Positions 3,053 through 43,721 of a stretch of 43,721 bases of DNA are shown one piece after another (within the stretch, counting starts at the first letter, position 1; every line of letters starts with the position of its first letter). Location of the stretch: positions 1 to 43,721 of IMG/VR virus record IMGVR_UViG_3300034198_007412; one strand, given 5' to 3'. Source of the DNA: a virus. The notes under the pieces are model-generated. The model saw only the letters and a program-made list of their open reading frames with translations. It did not search any database and was not told where the DNA came from. The translations under genes were made by a program, and so were the position numbers.

Positions 3053-3203
3053 GTTACTGCGCCACAAACTAGAATTGAACCAAACGCAAATGGCTGAAAA
3101 ACTTGGTATATCGCTTGCAACTTATGGTCTGTATGAGCGCGGAAAAACTATGAGTAAAACCGTTAGATTACTGGCTGAAACTATGAGCGCGGCTCTGGGG
3201 TGA
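3033..3203 (+). CDS. XRE-type HTH regulator, short
   Basis: 56 residues: a classic Cro/CI helix-turn-helix (ELKLLRHKLELNQTQMAEKL, then LGISLATYGLYERG) occupying almost the whole protein. It binds DNA, probably as a dimer, and ends the small-gene run, a common place for an autorepressor of the operon. The last 23 bases overlap, on the opposite strand, the end of the VirE-like gene. Start ATG at 3033 with a weak AAGG site upstream. Confidence 0.7.
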   Translation: MTHKELKLLRHKLELNQTQMAEKLGISLATYGLYERGKTMSKTVRLLAETMSAALG

Positions 3204-14288: not shown

Positions 14289-14355
14289 GCTGTTCAGCCT
14301 TGAGGAGTTGCAGCAGATATGCGCCCAACGAAATAAAGATCGGAGGATTAAATGA
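14281..14355 (+). CDS. Possible 24-residue peptide
   Basis: Starts inside the end of the previous gene and overlaps the next by 4 bases (ATGA), and it contains the GGAGG site of the next gene. Helical, charged (FSLEELQQICAQRNKDRR). Coupling is the only support. Confidence 0.3.
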   Translation: MDKLFSLEELQQICAQRNKDRRIK

Positions 14356-14603
14356 AAGTAGTTCTTACTAAAAATCATTTTGCTACAGCCCACGAAGCTT
14401 TGACAGAAGCAAATAAAGTTTTAGCAGCCAATGGCCTTCCGTTATTTACATATGGAACTTGCGGGGGTGGCGGTGTAGCAGCAATTAGTTATGGAGGCGG
14501 TGGTGGCACTGGGGTTTATGGTTCAAATAAACCAGCAGGAGCCGGTGGCGTATTTACCCCAAATAAGGAATCTATTGCCTCTCGGCCGCATTTGGAAACA
14601 TGA
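14352..14603 (+). CDS. Glycine-rich small protein
   Basis: 83 residues behind GGAGG. Two short glycine clusters (CGGGGVAAISYGGGGG) in the middle and a prolonged polar tail. It overlaps the start of the TrpRS gene by 4 bases, so the two are co-translated, and it may affect that enzyme. No family recognised. Confidence 0.5.
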   Translation: MKVVLTKNHFATAHEALTEANKVLAANGLPLFTYGTCGGGGVAAISYGGGGGTGVYGSNKPAGAGGVFTPNKESIASRPHLET

Positions 14604-15346
14604 AATACGTCACAGGCATAAGGCCAACAGGAAATATTCATTTAGGAAATTACCTTGGCGCGATCAAGCAAGCAAGAAAACTTGGTTGCATGGTATTTGT
14701 TGCTGACCTCCACGGAATTCACAGCCGCGAAGAAGTTATGAAGACTGCCAAAATCCTTATTGATATTGGGTTAGATGTTGACATCCAAAGCCATTTCCCT
14801 AAAGAACATTTAATCTTGTATGCGAATTTATTGCAATATGCCAAGATAGGTCATCTTTCGCGGATGACGCAGTACAAGGAAAAATCGGAGAAAGAGGCGC
14901 AGGTAGCTTCATTGCTTACCTATCCTGTGCTGATGGCTGCCGACATATTCTATCTCCAAGGCACACATATCCCCGTAGGTAACGACCAAGTACAACACAT
15001 AGAGTTTATCAGAGATTTACATGATAAGCTTCCAGAGAAGTCTTTCCCTAAGCCGGAAGCTGTTGTAAGCGAATATCCCCGCATTATGTCGCTTACGGAC
15101 GGAACAAAGAAAATGAGCAAATCTGAACCGGATGATATGAGCAGGATTAATATTATTGATAATGCAGAAACAATCAGGCGCAAGATAATGGTAGCAAAAA
15201 CAGCTATGTCGATAGATGATGATACGCCGGAAATGGTAAACTTACGCACTATCTATAAGGCAGTTGGGGGCAAAGAAAAGCATACAAGGTTTAAGGATTT
15301 CAAAACCGAACTTGCCGATCTAATCATTGCCGAGGTGCACTCGTAG
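14600..15346 (+). CDS. trpS: Shortened tryptophanyl-tRNA synthetase
   Basis: 248 residues, clearly TrpRS: GIRPTGNIHLGNYLGA (6-21, HIGH-type HLGN), MAADI (112-116, the Asp that recognises the indole), GNDQ (127-130) and KMSKS (171-175). Bacterial TrpRS is about 330 residues. This one ends in the helix matching 'ELADAI...EL', so about 60-70 C-terminal residues, including part of the anticodon-reading region, are missing, and no frame continues after the stop. The class I core is complete, so tryptophanyl-adenylate formation is plausible; tRNA charging is uncertain. No tRNA gene accompanies it. The last 23 bases overlap a lipoprotein gene on the other strand. Confidence 0.9.
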   Translation: MKYVTGIRPTGNIHLGNYLGAIKQARKLGCMVFVADLHGIHSREEVMKTAKILIDIGLDVDIQSHFPKEHLILYANLLQYAKIGHLSRMTQYKEKSEKEAQVASLLTYPVLMAADIFYLQGTHIPVGNDQVQHIEFIRDLHDKLPEKSFPKPEAVVSEYPRIMSLTDGTKKMSKSEPDDMSRINIIDNAETIRRKIMVAKTAMSIDDDTPEMVNLRTIYKAVGGKEKHTRFKDFKTELADLIIAEVHS

Positions 15347-15422
15347 GAAACACCGGACACTCTCCCTTAGCGCATACGGTGCAGCCAGATAGTAGTAGGG
15401 AAATGAGGATTATTTTTGCCAT
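15324..15422 (-). CDS. Short lipoprotein, probable o-spanin
   Basis: 32 residues: a hydrophobic signal (KIILISLLL) ending in the lipobox LLSGC, leaving a mature part of 19 residues beginning at the lipidated Cys. Small outer-membrane lipoproteins of this kind (Rz1/gp18.7 type) join an inner-membrane partner to fuse the membranes at lysis of Gram-negative hosts. It starts 12 bases inside the end of the holin gene and its end overlaps trpS antisense. Shorter than usual o-spanins, and no clear i-spanin is seen nearby, so the call is moderate. Confidence 0.55.
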   Translation of the reverse strand: MAKIILISLLLSGCTVCAKGECPVFPTSAPRQ

Positions 15423-35453: not shown

Positions 35454-37089
35454 TTTCCCACTCTTGTAGCGTTACGCTGTTTTGTTTGATTTGGTCTATT
35501 TTAGAATTAAACTGATCTACCCATGCCTTATACTGCTCAAAGCAAGCTCTTTGCCACGATGGAATACCGTTCCCATGAAGTACCATATTAAACCCTTGTT
35601 CGGTTTTATACAAATCATGCAGTTCTTTCGCCTGTGCCAAGAACTGCCCTTCTGTCCAAAACGTGCGCTGCTGTAGCTTTCCGCCCCATGTTTTCGCAGC
35701 CAAAGTAATTTCCATATACTTGAGATTTCCAGCATCATCGCGCTTATTCATGTCAGGCTTGGTGAAGTAGCAAAGGTCGTAACCATAACAATGGATGTCG
35801 CTAAACCCAAGGCACTCATGCAGAACGCCAAGGCAGCGAGTGGCTGTAGCGCTGCCGCCAGAAACAAGCATAGTGCCTTTGTCTAGTATTTTTTCTTCGC
35901 CTGCGCCAACCATTGCGTGATAGCCAATAACAATACAATTGTTATCTAACAACGTCTTAACAACAGACGGATCAACCATAGAAGCAACAAAATAGATAAC
36001 ATCCTTGTCTGGTGTGTTAATAAATTTCTCAACATGCTGTCTTGGGTCTAGCAATACACACGCCCAAGGCTTAATTCCCCATGCTTTCAAGCGATCAATG
36101 GCATGTTTTACCGTAACAATCTTTGTACCTTTATCCGCCCATTTCTTAACATCACAATAGGACAAGCTTTCGCCCGCGCTGCAAATAACCACGGTTTCAT
36201 CGTGCGGTTTAACGTATTCTACCCATTTTTTAATTTGTTTAAGGTTTTCTTTAATATTTGCAATGATCTGTTCATGCGGAATGCAGTTCATGGTTTTAAT
36301 AGTCATGGTATCCGCTACAATAGGGCGCTGTATTTCGTTTGGCTGCATGATATTTTGTGTTTTAGCCACATGCTTTCGGTTCCCTTTGCGGTGCTCCATG
36401 TATTTGCCTAGTTTTGATTCTGGGAACACATGCCATCCCTTTATGCCTTCTGACAAATTCAAAACGCAATAATTTTTTGCTACATGGTCGAACACATCGC
36501 AATCTGTCCAGCCAGCAAGCATAAGCACTTCATCAGTGACATAGCAATTGTGCATTTTGTCAATAATTTCTCCGCCCTTACCTTCAAGGCTAAATTGAAT
36601 AAATGAGCATTCGCTATGTGGAGCGTCAATGCGTTGTAATGTTGCGGCGTCATATATTTCTAATTTTGTAACATTTGCCCCCATATCTTCCGGCACATAA
36701 TCAGCCTTCGTAATAACATCAGCATCCAACCAAATAATGTCCGTATAATCTAATTGGCGGCAATGGTCAGCAACGCCCTTTAGCGCAAATACCTTGTGCG
36801 CAAACTTGCATACATGGAAACGGTAGCTAACATCAGGTGAGTCCTGATTGCGCTTATAAAACGCCTCTTTTTCATCCGTCCATTGATTTGATATAAAGAA
36901 CTCGCGCCCAGATTTGAGAATATCACCAATATCCTGATGTAAAAATGCCAATTCTTCTTTGCTTACCTTGTCCAATGCAATGAATAAATCCACATCTTTA
37001 GGCCAATGCTTATCAAATGTGACAATCATTTCGCGTGCGCAGACATTGTAATAATCTAACGGAAAAGTTGTGCAAACTGCTGTTTTCAT
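35434..37089 (-). CDS. Glycosyltransferase fused to DUF115 (Maf-like) domain
   Basis: 551 residues in two parts. The N-terminal 260 form a GT-A-like transferase with YTDIIWLDADV (DAD at 122-124) and WVFPESKLGKYM-type end. The C-terminal 250 match the DUF115/MptE-like fold (PF01973): TVVICSAGESLSYCDVKKW (about 300-318), WACVLLDPRQH, LVSGGSATATRCLGVLHECLG and IHCYGYDLCY. DUF115 proteins include the flagellin nonulosonic-acid transferases. The fusion is unusual, and probably links sugar transfer and acceptor handling. Confidence 0.7.
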   Translation of the reverse strand: MKTAVCTTFPLDYYNVCAREMIVTFDKHWPKDVDLFIALDKVSKEELAFLHQDIGDILKSGREFFISNQWTDEKEAFYKRNQDSPDVSYRFHVCKFAHKVFALKGVADHCRQLDYTDIIWLDADVITKADYVPEDMGANVTKLEIYDAATLQRIDAPHSECSFIQFSLEGKGGEIIDKMHNCYVTDEVLMLAGWTDCDVFDHVAKNYCVLNLSEGIKGWHVFPESKLGKYMEHRKGNRKHVAKTQNIMQPNEIQRPIVADTMTIKTMNCIPHEQIIANIKENLKQIKKWVEYVKPHDETVVICSAGESLSYCDVKKWADKGTKIVTVKHAIDRLKAWGIKPWACVLLDPRQHVEKFINTPDKDVIYFVASMVDPSVVKTLLDNNCIVIGYHAMVGAGEEKILDKGTMLVSGGSATATRCLGVLHECLGFSDIHCYGYDLCYFTKPDMNKRDDAGNLKYMEITLAAKTWGGKLQQRTFWTEGQFLAQAKELHDLYKTEQGFNMVLHGNGIPSWQRACFEQYKAWVDQFNSKIDQIKQNSVTLQEWENGIRAK

Positions 37090-38063
37090 GATGTAACCAT
37101 TTCTCCTACAAGCTGTTCAATCGTAATTGTTGGTGTCCAATCAAGGCGTTGCTGCGCTTTTTTAGCGCTACCTCTTAAGTATTTCAGATCATTAGGGCGG
37201 TAGAACTCTGGCGATACTTCAACTACTTTCACGCCGTTGACGTACCCACATTCATTAACGCCTTCGCCTTCAAACATGATGCCTTTGCCAATAACCTCAA
37301 ACGCCATACGCACAAAGTTACGAACCGTTGTTGAGTGACCTGTTGCAATAACATAATCATCTGGCATAGGTGCTTGCAGCATTTTGTGCATGGCAATCAC
37401 ATAGTCCTGCGCATGGCCCCAATCACGCGAGGCATCCAGATTGCCTAGTTTTAAACATTCTGTACCGCTAAAATTCTTTACAAAGTTGGTTATCTTCTTT
37501 GTTACAAAATCGTTGCCCCTAAGTGGACTTTCGTGATTGAACAAAATACCGTTGCATACAAATTGTTCTGCTTCATATCGAGCATTGACCCCTGCCCAAT
37601 GCGCGGCGACTTTCGAAATTGCATACGGGGACATAGGGGAAAACGGAGTTTGTTCATTGCATATTCCTTCCGCTGAATAACCAAACATCTCGCTTGTTCC
37701 GGCTTGATATATTTTGCACGCTGGTACAAACTTACGAGCAGCAAGCAGTATGTTCAGGTAGCCGCCGTAGTTTACCTGACACGTTTGCATTGCATTGTTG
37801 AACGACAGCCCTACATGCGATTGTGCAGCAAGGTTATATAATTCCTGTGGCTGCGTTTTATATATCTCGTCTGCAACGTGGTGCGGATCACAAATATCAA
37901 TATCAACAACCTTTACAAGATACTCAACGCCAAGATATTTTAGCCCCGCAAGTGAGGCATTGCGTCTTGCCCAGCCAATAACGTTATAGCCTTGGGATAG
38001 TAGGTGCTTTGCTAAGTACGCACCGTCCTGACCACACACGCCTGTTACAATTGCGGTTTTCAT
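37086..38063 (-). CDS. gmd: GDP-mannose 4,6-dehydratase
   Basis: 325 residues, an NAD(P)-binding SDR enzyme: TGVCGQDGAYLAKHLL (nucleotide-binding glycines), YNLAAQSHVGLSF, YQAGTSEMFG, SPYAISK (YxxxK), RGNDFVTKKI, RDWGHAQDYV and PEFYRPNDLKYL are all Gmd signatures. It makes GDP-4-keto-6-deoxymannose, the precursor of GDP-fucose, GDP-rhamnose and related sugars. I chose the ATG at 38063 (ATGA overlap with the glycosyltransferase stop) over the TTG at 38069. Confidence 0.85.
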   Translation of the reverse strand: MKTAIVTGVCGQDGAYLAKHLLSQGYNVIGWARRNASLAGLKYLGVEYLVKVVDIDICDPHHVADEIYKTQPQELYNLAAQSHVGLSFNNAMQTCQVNYGGYLNILLAARKFVPACKIYQAGTSEMFGYSAEGICNEQTPFSPMSPYAISKVAAHWAGVNARYEAEQFVCNGILFNHESPLRGNDFVTKKITNFVKNFSGTECLKLGNLDASRDWGHAQDYVIAMHKMLQAPMPDDYVIATGHSTTVRNFVRMAFEVIGKGIMFEGEGVNECGYVNGVKVVEVSPEFYRPNDLKYLRGSAKKAQQRLDWTPTITIEQLVGEMVTS

Positions 38064-38833
38064 AACCAAACCCCATAATCTACATCAATCGTTTCTTTAA
38101 TAGGCTCATAGTTACCATCTTCAAGCCAGCGTTTGTAATACTTCCACCATGTATCGGCGTGCATAACGTCCTTGTAATTGTCAAACCATGGCCCGCCCTC
38201 AGTATAATGCACAACCTTTGGCTTGACGTTGCTTGGTGATATGCCTTGAATCCAGTTGTAGGTAGTAGGCAATGCGCCAATCTGGAAGTCTTGCAGCCAC
38301 GCAAAACTATGCAGCCAGCTACCGGGGCGCGTTGATACCATCTCAGGCGTAATATCTTTGTTAGCTGGATGCCCACAATTGATAAGCATAAAGCTAGACC
38401 AGTTCTTGCGGTAATAGTTTGTCTGCGGCACACCATCCATTTTATCGCCCATTGGTGGCTTATGGTTATGTTTTACGCACATTATGGCGTATTTGTCATC
38501 ACAGAGCGCAAACAGGTCTTTGATATTGTCATCCCATACCATGTCGCAATCCATAAACAGCGCCCACCCCTTATAGCCCATCAACGAAGGGATAAGGAAT
38601 CTAGTATGCGAAAACTCGGTGCTAAATGGCCTGCCATCAACAAGATCCGTCCAGTTACCATCATAGGCGTTTGTCAACCAAGGGCGGGTAAACCATCCTT
38701 GCCTGCGAAGCTGTTTGTGGCATAATGGGATAATCTCTGCTTTTGAGTGCGTATTGTGTTCAATGGATTTTCGGCAAATGTCATAACAAATTTTCTCCCT
38801 AGAATCCCATCCGATATAAACCGTGTATGTCAT
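38060..38833 (-). CDS. Glycosyltransferase, GT-A fold (GT8-like)
   Basis: 257 residues from the ATG at 38833 (a longer frame reaches 38887 but overlaps the HNH end). VYIGWDSREKICYDICRKS at the start and FMDCDMVW (DxD, about 94-101) are typical of GT8-like retaining transferases; KPKVVHYTEGGPWFDNY ends the acceptor side. A metal-dependent transferase using a nucleotide sugar, probably working with Gmd next door. Confidence 0.75.
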   Translation of the reverse strand: MTYTVYIGWDSREKICYDICRKSIEHNTHSKAEIIPLCHKQLRRQGWFTRPWLTNAYDGNWTDLVDGRPFSTEFSHTRFLIPSLMGYKGWALFMDCDMVWDDNIKDLFALCDDKYAIMCVKHNHKPPMGDKMDGVPQTNYYRKNWSSFMLINCGHPANKDITPEMVSTRPGSWLHSFAWLQDFQIGALPTTYNWIQGISPSNVKPKVVHYTEGGPWFDNYKDVMHADTWWKYYKRWLEDGNYEPIKETIDVDYGVWL

Positions 38834-39967: not shown

Positions 39968-40251
39968 GGAATCCTCACAATGTCAGATTCATTACACTTT
40001 TCGCCGTACTGGATTTCTAGCACCAACGGGCGCTCTCCATTAGCGTAATAGGTATGCACCTCGCCCTTGTTAATCAGCCAAAAGTTACCCTTATGCACTC
40101 CAGTTAGGAATAGCCATAACTCGCTTCTATGATTGTGGTATTGAACTGATAACTGACCGCCAAGTTTAAAACGCAGCAGCTTTACCTTGAACTGCCGAAA
40201 ATTAAGCAGAACTAGATACCAGCCCCATGCGCGTTTTTTAAATCTTGCCAT
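39964..40251 (-). CDS. Cupin, mannose-6-phosphate isomerase type II-like
   Basis: 95 residues from the ATG at 40251 (behind AGAGGG; a longer start at 40284 lacks this). RAWGWYLVLL, LGGQLSVQYHNHRSELWLFL, then GEVHTYYANG and VLEIQYGEKCNESDIVRI match the C-terminal cupin domain of bifunctional mannose-6-phosphate isomerase/GDP-mannose pyrophosphorylases (PF01050). Metal-binding H/E residues (HNHRSE) are present. It may supply mannose phosphates for the Gmd step; overlaps the next gene by 14 bases. Confidence 0.7.
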   Translation of the reverse strand: MARFKKRAWGWYLVLLNFRQFKVKLLRFKLGGQLSVQYHNHRSELWLFLTGVHKGNFWLINKGEVHTYYANGERPLVLEIQYGEKCNESDIVRIP

Positions 40252-40648
40252 TTGCCCTCTTAACCAATTCACTACTGCTTGCAATCTTTTTGCCGCCCAT
40301 ACCCCAAAGCATTGTGATGCCTAATTCTTTACAAAGTTTCTTTTCTGGTGTATTCTTAGTAGTTCTATCGCCGCCATTAGCAAAGTAATCCGGCTTTAGG
40401 TACTTGAGCGTTTCGCATACGGTATCGTCATCGTCACGCGCAATAATAACATTATGCACGCTGCGCAATGCCAGCAATATTTCCCTACGCTGCTCCCACG
40501 GCATTACGAAGAACCCTTTCTTACGCAAAAGCCATTCATCGGTGTTAAGGATTACAACCACGTTGCCAAGGTCGGCTGCTTTTTCTATCATGCGTACATG
40601 GCCAATGTGGATAGGATCAAAACCGCCAGACACGCAGATGGTTTTCAT
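40238..40648 (-). CDS. Cytidylyl/nucleotidyl-transferase (RfaE/TagD-like)
   Basis: 136 residues of the nucleotidyltransferase fold: GGFDPIHIGHVRMI (8-21) with the HIGH-type HIGH at 14-17, NTDEWLLRKKG, and a C-terminal ISSSELVKR-like (SSSELVKRANG) motif. Related enzymes activate glycerol phosphate or heptose phosphates as CDP/ADP sugars. Which substrate is used cannot be told. Clustered with other sugar genes. Confidence 0.75.
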   Translation of the reverse strand: MKTICVSGGFDPIHIGHVRMIEKAADLGNVVVILNTDEWLLRKKGFFVMPWEQRREILLALRSVHNVIIARDDDDTVCETLKYLKPDYFANGGDRTTKNTPEKKLCKELGITMLWGMGGKKIASSSELVKRANGKI

Positions 40649-43307: not shown

Positions 43308-43652
43308 TTATGGCTCTTGTGTTTCGTTATCTATTACTAGTGGTTCTGGGTTAGCTAGTCGTATAACTAACGGCTCATAACGCAGCTTAACTTGTGCGTT
43401 CATATCAATTGACTGGTGAGGCCTGCCGTCAATCCTGTCTAATAGCTCTTTGATTGCAGTCACGGCCTTTATATCACTAGCATTTGCCTGAATGATAGCC
43501 ACAAGCTCTTTCATTGCCAGCTCACGCAATGCAGCCTTGTCTGTAATATCGATTGGCGGTGGTGCCTTTGCAGGGGATTGCGGCAATGTTTCGCCATCTC
43601 GAACCTTTTTCAGCTCGCCAGTGGTTTTGTCTAATACGGTTTTATACGTCAT
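43308..43652 (-). CDS. Probable small terminase subunit
   Basis: 114 residues. The region AIKELLDRIDGRPHQSIDM has the look of small terminase-associated proteins, which recognise packaging DNA; the N-terminal 20 residues (TYKTVLDKTTGELKKV) are polar and could form a DNA-binding helix. It is immediately upstream of TerL on the same strand. The ATG (43652, equal to position 18) has no ribosome binding site and coincides with the predicted start of transcription. Confidence 0.55.
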   Translation of the reverse strand: MTYKTVLDKTTGELKKVRDGETLPQSPAKAPPPIDITDKAALRELAMKELVAIIQANASDIKAVTAIKELLDRIDGRPHQSIDMNAQVKLRYEPLVIRLANPEPLVIDNETQEP

Positions 43653-43721
43653 AAAGCCATTGTAACAAATTCAGTACCTTATCGCAAAGTTAAACTCGAA
43701 CACTGTCAAAACACTGTCAAA
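43635..43721. repeat. Terminal redundancy, second copy
   Basis: Identical to positions 1-87; it repeats the small-terminase start, the leftward promoter and the first part of the 11-bp repeat block. One copy should be removed to obtain the circular unit. Confidence 0.9.

Follow-up and report, generated by a model that had tools for sequence, protein, structure and literature searches.

A compact tryptophanyl-tRNA synthetase in a 43.6-kb phage shares its C-terminal cut with a set of mostly viral relatives

We observed that the window analysed here (the whole 43,721 nucleotides of virus record IMGVR_UViG_3300034198_007412) carries a tryptophanyl-tRNA synthetase (TrpRS) gene, trpS (14600..15346, plus strand), whose 248-residue product stops within the anticodon-binding helical domain. 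Thirteen further TrpRS proteins, of 235-267 amino acids, were found to end in the same helix. As the cut lies at the same place in many unrelated phages, the compact TrpRS appears to be a separate form of the enzyme, proper to viruses, and not a broken gene. From sequence comparison and structure modelling, we consider it probable that this compact phage-type enzyme activates tryptophan (Trp) and charges tRNA-Trp, which it would recognize at the acceptor end, and that the tRNA charged in the present phage would be that of the host.

The trpS open reading frame (ORF) is open throughout, from an ATG start to a TAG stop, and its product matched TrpRS in Pfam, NCBIfam and PDB searches. The Pfam domain tRNA-synt_1b was found with E=1.7e-41, and the NCBIfam equivalog trpS profile (TIGR00233) with E=6e-50 over profile positions 6-254 of 328; the score of 170.4 bits did not reach the curated cut-off of 176.75. 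The stop and these searches agree with a sequence-only reading of this DNA, which had described a TrpRS ending at residue 248 with all its class I catalytic motifs kept. The motifs were indeed all present on the plus strand. HLGN, the first class I signature (residues 14-17, 14639..14650), lies in columns conserved in compact and full-length TrpRS. In MAAD (residues 112-115, 14933..14944), D115 was invariant in 31 sequences, and it aligns with the aspartate by which Bacillus TrpRS recognizes the N-H of the indole. G127, D129 and Q130 of GNDQ (residues 127-130, 14978..14989) were also invariant, as was the KMSKS loop (residues 171-175, 15110..15124) in every compact and full-length sequence aligned.

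Structure prediction, a check that the sequence-only reading had proposed, gave a TrpRS fold. The AlphaFold model of the 248-residue protein had a predicted local distance difference test score (pLDDT) of 92.4 and a predicted template modelling score (pTM) of 0.85, with high confidence through the last helix; the model of one huge-phage compact TrpRS had a pLDDT of 89.7. The best 50 Foldseek matches in the PDB were all TrpRS, with query template modelling scores (TMq) of up to 0.88. The closest solved structures were those of Bacillus TrpRS, with 1i6k, which contains tryptophanyl-adenylate (Trp-AMP), at TMq 0.88, while the viral structures of BFVD were mainly giant-virus Tyr/Trp enzymes, all of them weaker (best TMq 0.74). 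In the retained N-terminal part of the anticodon-binding domain (15164..15340, plus strand), DSSP placed helices at residues 189-198, 210-221 and 231-247 of the model, all with high pLDDT, and two lysines in this part, K195 and K235, were invariant across compact and full-length enzymes.

The C-terminal loss had been put at 60-70 residues; alignment to full-length TrpRS gave a smaller value, with a median of 45 (37-49). The difference between 248 and about 330 amino acids arises because eight internal blocks of 1-8 residues (31-38 residues in total, depending on the reference) are missing in addition to this tail. The last residue of the protein falls midway through the FK-x2-LA helix, after which every full-length TrpRS continues with the residues missing here, so that the anticodon-binding domain is incomplete and its C-terminal helices are gone. 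A hidden Markov model (HMM) of the tail had no match in any of the window's six frames (best E 0.25, in a frame overlapping trpS), while tail-only positive controls gave 1e-15 or better. A split or frameshifted trpS, including a frameshift that would restore the C-terminus, was thus ruled out. The gap that follows trpS (15347..15409), at 63 bp, is also too short to hold the missing 45 residues. Recoding of TGA to Trp was ruled out as well, since TGA is the stop in 29 of 65 genes.

The sequence-only reading was right about the shortening, but this gene is not alone in having it. The comparison with other phage enzymes that it had called for brought the compact proteins to 14, all of which end within the FK-x2-LA helix, ahead of the conserved tail, and none of about 108 full-length relatives ended at this cut. 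Eight of the relatives come from one group of huge phages (up to 735 kb), four from viral contigs outside this group (19-97 kb) and one from a planctomycete contig, L115, the only one of the 14 outside viral records. The huge-phage set includes LR756501 (735 kb, TrpRS of 237 amino acids) and LR756502 (642 kb, 239 amino acids), which have the same end, and six more copies came from scans. The copies in contigs of 19, 22, 47.5 and 97 kb have 259, 267, 236 and 266 amino acids, respectively; the one in the 97-kb contig (L242:3001-3801) carries its own unrelated tail of about 35 residues past the common cut. L115 lies in a planctomycete metagenome-assembled genome and encodes a copy of 263 amino acids in a mobile-element-like region where YopX-like, HNH and ArdC-like genes lie close by. 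A YopX-like gene (phrog_98) was observed shortly downstream of compact trpS in both L115 (1483-2274) and the viral contig L236 (7989-8792). A second planctomycete genome holds a 3' trpS fragment, 63% identical and with the same end.

Chromosomes and plasmids gave ordinary enzymes. The closest chromosomal TrpRS were all full length, and no complete chromosomal enzyme with an extracted reading frame was shorter than 320 amino acids; among the matches listed, plasmids had only ordinary trpS, of at most about 40% identity. Many TrpRS matches in the phage collections (H1-H12 and H17; Listeria, Salmonella, Enterococcus etc.) look like bacterial contigs filed as phage, and these were used solely as full-length outgroups. 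The compact lineage would thus far be confined to phages and mobile-element DNA. No report of a truncated phage TrpRS was found in the literature searched, and within the libraries searched the compact enzyme is new as a described variant, though not a new kind of system.

We further examined ancestry and selection. In a tree built without the truncated columns, all 14 compact proteins fell on one side of a branch with support of 92/99, present in 95% of bootstrap trees; this falls under the threshold of 95/80. An earlier tree, with 11 compact members and more distant outgroups, had no compact clade in its best topology, and such a clade was not rejected (approximately unbiased test, p-AU 0.46). 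Shared ancestry of the compact enzymes is therefore moderately supported. The window and L115 proteins are 66% identical, with proportions of synonymous and nonsynonymous differences (pS and pN) of 0.91 and 0.23, despite GC contents at third codon positions (GC3) of 0.44 and 0.86. The ratio of nonsynonymous to synonymous substitution rates (dN/dS) was about 0.1 in the huge-phage group. By these measures the compact TrpRS is under strong purifying selection. The invariant catalytic residues, the structure match and this selection together point to an active TrpRS.

The tRNA genes of the relatives give an indication of the substrate. Five huge-phage loci (L007, L009, L010, L011 and L012) have tRNA-Trp at a distance of less than 10 kb from compact trpS, three of them in two copies, and the L242 record has 38 tRNA matches with one tRNA-Trp among them. 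All nine tRNA-Trp from these six relatives have A1-U72, followed at position 2-71 by C-G in eight and U-G in one, with the bacterial G2-C71 in none; the base at position 73 is G in seven and A in two. All eight huge-phage tRNA-Trp start with AC (A1-U72, C2-G71), a start seen in no other tRNA of these loci among the matches listed, and that of L242 starts with AUC. In L015, a phage whose TrpRS is full length, tRNA-Trp starts with AGG, as bacterial tRNA-Trp also do. A long variable arm, which is odd for tRNA-Trp, was found in three of the nine (L009:6712, L010:8734 and L011:9902). B. subtilis TrpRS needs G2-C71, G3-C70, G4-C69 and G73 (PMC9976931). The altered acceptor stems suggest a co-evolved enzyme-tRNA pair read at the acceptor stem, as a correlation across eight tRNAs of one lineage. 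The L011 phage also encodes a tRNA with a CUA anticodon (3119-3191; Pyl according to ARAGORN), a possible amber suppressor.

In the scheme that we propose, about 45 residues with the last helices of the anticodon-binding domain would have been lost and a number of surface loops trimmed, with the catalytic core and the domain's first helices kept. The enzyme would most likely make Trp-AMP and then charge tRNA-Trp, which it would recognize more by the acceptor end, through A1-U72 and the discriminator base, and less by the anticodon. In tRNA-rich phages it would serve the phage's own tRNA-Trp. ARAGORN found no tRNA gene in the window, as had been claimed, and Rfam gave no match of note, so that a hidden tRNA was ruled out. 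Since the window phage encodes no tRNA, host tRNA would have to be the substrate here; its charging during infection would keep up the supply of Trp-tRNA if host TrpRS or Trp became limiting. Among the functions that the sequence-only reading had offered, charging of host tRNA appears the best supported.

Several observations weigh against this scheme. Removal of the whole anticodon-binding domain from Bacillus TrpRS lowers aminoacylation about 1e5-fold (PMC5272822), and some cost to charging would be expected from partial loss too, though the loops were trimmed in parallel. The link to charging comes from relatives that are 31-36% identical, and the window itself has no tRNA. The window and L115 proteins form a branch apart from the tRNA-rich huge phages. 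The record of the L240 phage, which has a compact TrpRS, contains no tRNA either. A stronger form of the scheme is possible, but we put it forward tentatively: reading of the acceptor end would be nearly independent of the anticodon, the huge phages would own a private pair with a tRNA-Trp that host TrpRS charges poorly, and the members in small phages would act on host tRNA. If true, the private huge-phage pair would be a ready-made candidate orthogonal Trp pair.

We also observed that the window enzyme and the eight huge-phage enzymes (L007-L014) contain no Trp at all (9 of the 14 compact proteins), while all 108 full-length TrpRS checked contain at least one, as do the remaining five compact ones. 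At 1.33% Trp, the chance of a Trp-free protein of 248 residues is about 4%. This absence, noticed after the fact, is suggestive only; it would allow synthesis of the enzyme when Trp-tRNA is scarce.

An alternative is a repurposed synthetase that still activates Trp and has lost tRNA charging, making Trp-AMP or dinucleotides or moving Trp to another acceptor. GluQRS and other truncated synthetase paralogues are precedents for transfer to another acceptor. Part of the anticodon domain is indeed lost, the window phage, the L240 record and the 105-kb L115 contig have no tRNA, and the planctomycete genome with L115 also encodes a full-length TrpRS. However, what is left of the tRNA-binding domain still has its invariant lysines, the relatives cluster with tRNA-Trp genes, and no conserved partner gene was found adjoining trpS. 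We consider this alternative unlikely. Still more improbable is a protein that binds tRNA-Trp and sequesters or marks it to damp host translation, or that is a decoy for a defence targeting tRNA-Trp or TrpRS. It would suit the position of trpS at the close of a rightward region of early type that holds genes for DNA modification and recombination (a DNA methylase and a YqaJ exonuclease), but HLGN, KMSKS and the Trp pocket, needless for a sequestering protein, are under purifying selection, and there is no defence-linked context. Neither a turn to Trp-AMP signalling nor sequestration of tRNA has support in the present results. A full-length trpS that was taken from a host and is decaying or was mis-assembled, as the score just under the family cut-off and the full length of all the nearest chromosomal enzymes might suggest, can practically be set aside, since it would require 14 coincident truncations, no tail is present in any frame, purifying selection is strong and the model is well folded to the last helix.

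The 43.6-kb phage genome is complete, as an exact direct repeat of 87 bp is present at 1-87 and 43635-43721. Upstream of trpS lies a Gly-rich ORF of 83 amino acids (14352..14603, plus strand) with no known family in PHROGs or Pfam. Its stop overlaps the trpS start (ATGA), which suggests translational coupling. The trpS start likewise overlaps the stop of a small upstream gene in L115 (1483), L227 (9986) and L236 (7989), and this gene differs in each of the four. At its 3' end, trpS faces a holin gene on the opposite strand across the 63-bp gap between these convergent genes, and no intrinsic terminator was found downstream of trpS (z 0.94). The window also encodes the terminase large subunit (TerL), portal, head and tail-fibre genes. 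Two minus-strand loci within the virion module, 37086-38069 and 40238-40648, hold sugar-nucleotide epimerase and heptose adenylyltransferase-like genes.

A search of 37 records related by TerL, two of them 43-45 kb long and the others shorter, most being fragments, was run without a positive control; it found no TrpRS, and no full-length homologue in the same neighbourhood. Because the TerL relatives lack TrpRS and those compared share mainly the virion module with the window phage, trpS is probably an accessory gene and not a core gene of this lineage. The records of L240, L242, L236 and L227, some of which are fragments, had no TerL match to the window. Together with the TrpRS-less TerL relatives, this suggests transfer of trpS between unrelated phages. 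The compact trpS would be an example of a stand-alone synthetase that small phages carry as a conserved, mobile gene.

The compact enzymes are a test, provided by nature, of which parts of a class I synthetase are required to charge tRNA: in the Bacillus enzyme the anticodon domain contributes a factor of about 1e5 to the rate (PMC5272822), and phages apparently keep a version without the end of it. The altered acceptor stems and the occasional long variable arms suggest co-evolved pairs, possibly useful for genetic code expansion.

Compared with bacterial TrpRS (TIGR00233; Geobacillus/Bacillus stearothermophilus, 1i6k), the window protein has the same class Ic core, the HLGN, KMSKS, GxDQ and MAAD motifs and the same fold (TMq 0.88), but it lacks 45 C-terminal residues and eight internal blocks (248 against about 330 amino acids) and scores below the family cut-off. 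Among huge-phage synthetases, the compact TrpRS of LR756501 and LR756502 share its cut; unlike the 43.6-kb window phage, the huge phages have tRNA clusters. The largest genome in Al-Shayeb et al. 2020 (PMC7162821) is 735 kb, the same size as LR756501. GluQRS, which modifies tRNA-Asp, is also a synthetase with an incomplete anticodon domain, but it has lost the whole of it, whereas the compact TrpRS keeps a part together with the invariant lysines. The TyrRS of Mimivirus has a minimised anticodon-recognition loop and is still active, the more so in suppression assays (PMC10135938). Like the compact TrpRS, for which activity is predicted, it is a viral synthetase of class Ic in which the part that reads the anticodon is reduced; however, it comes from a eukaryotic giant virus and has only the loop reduced, with no terminal helices lost.
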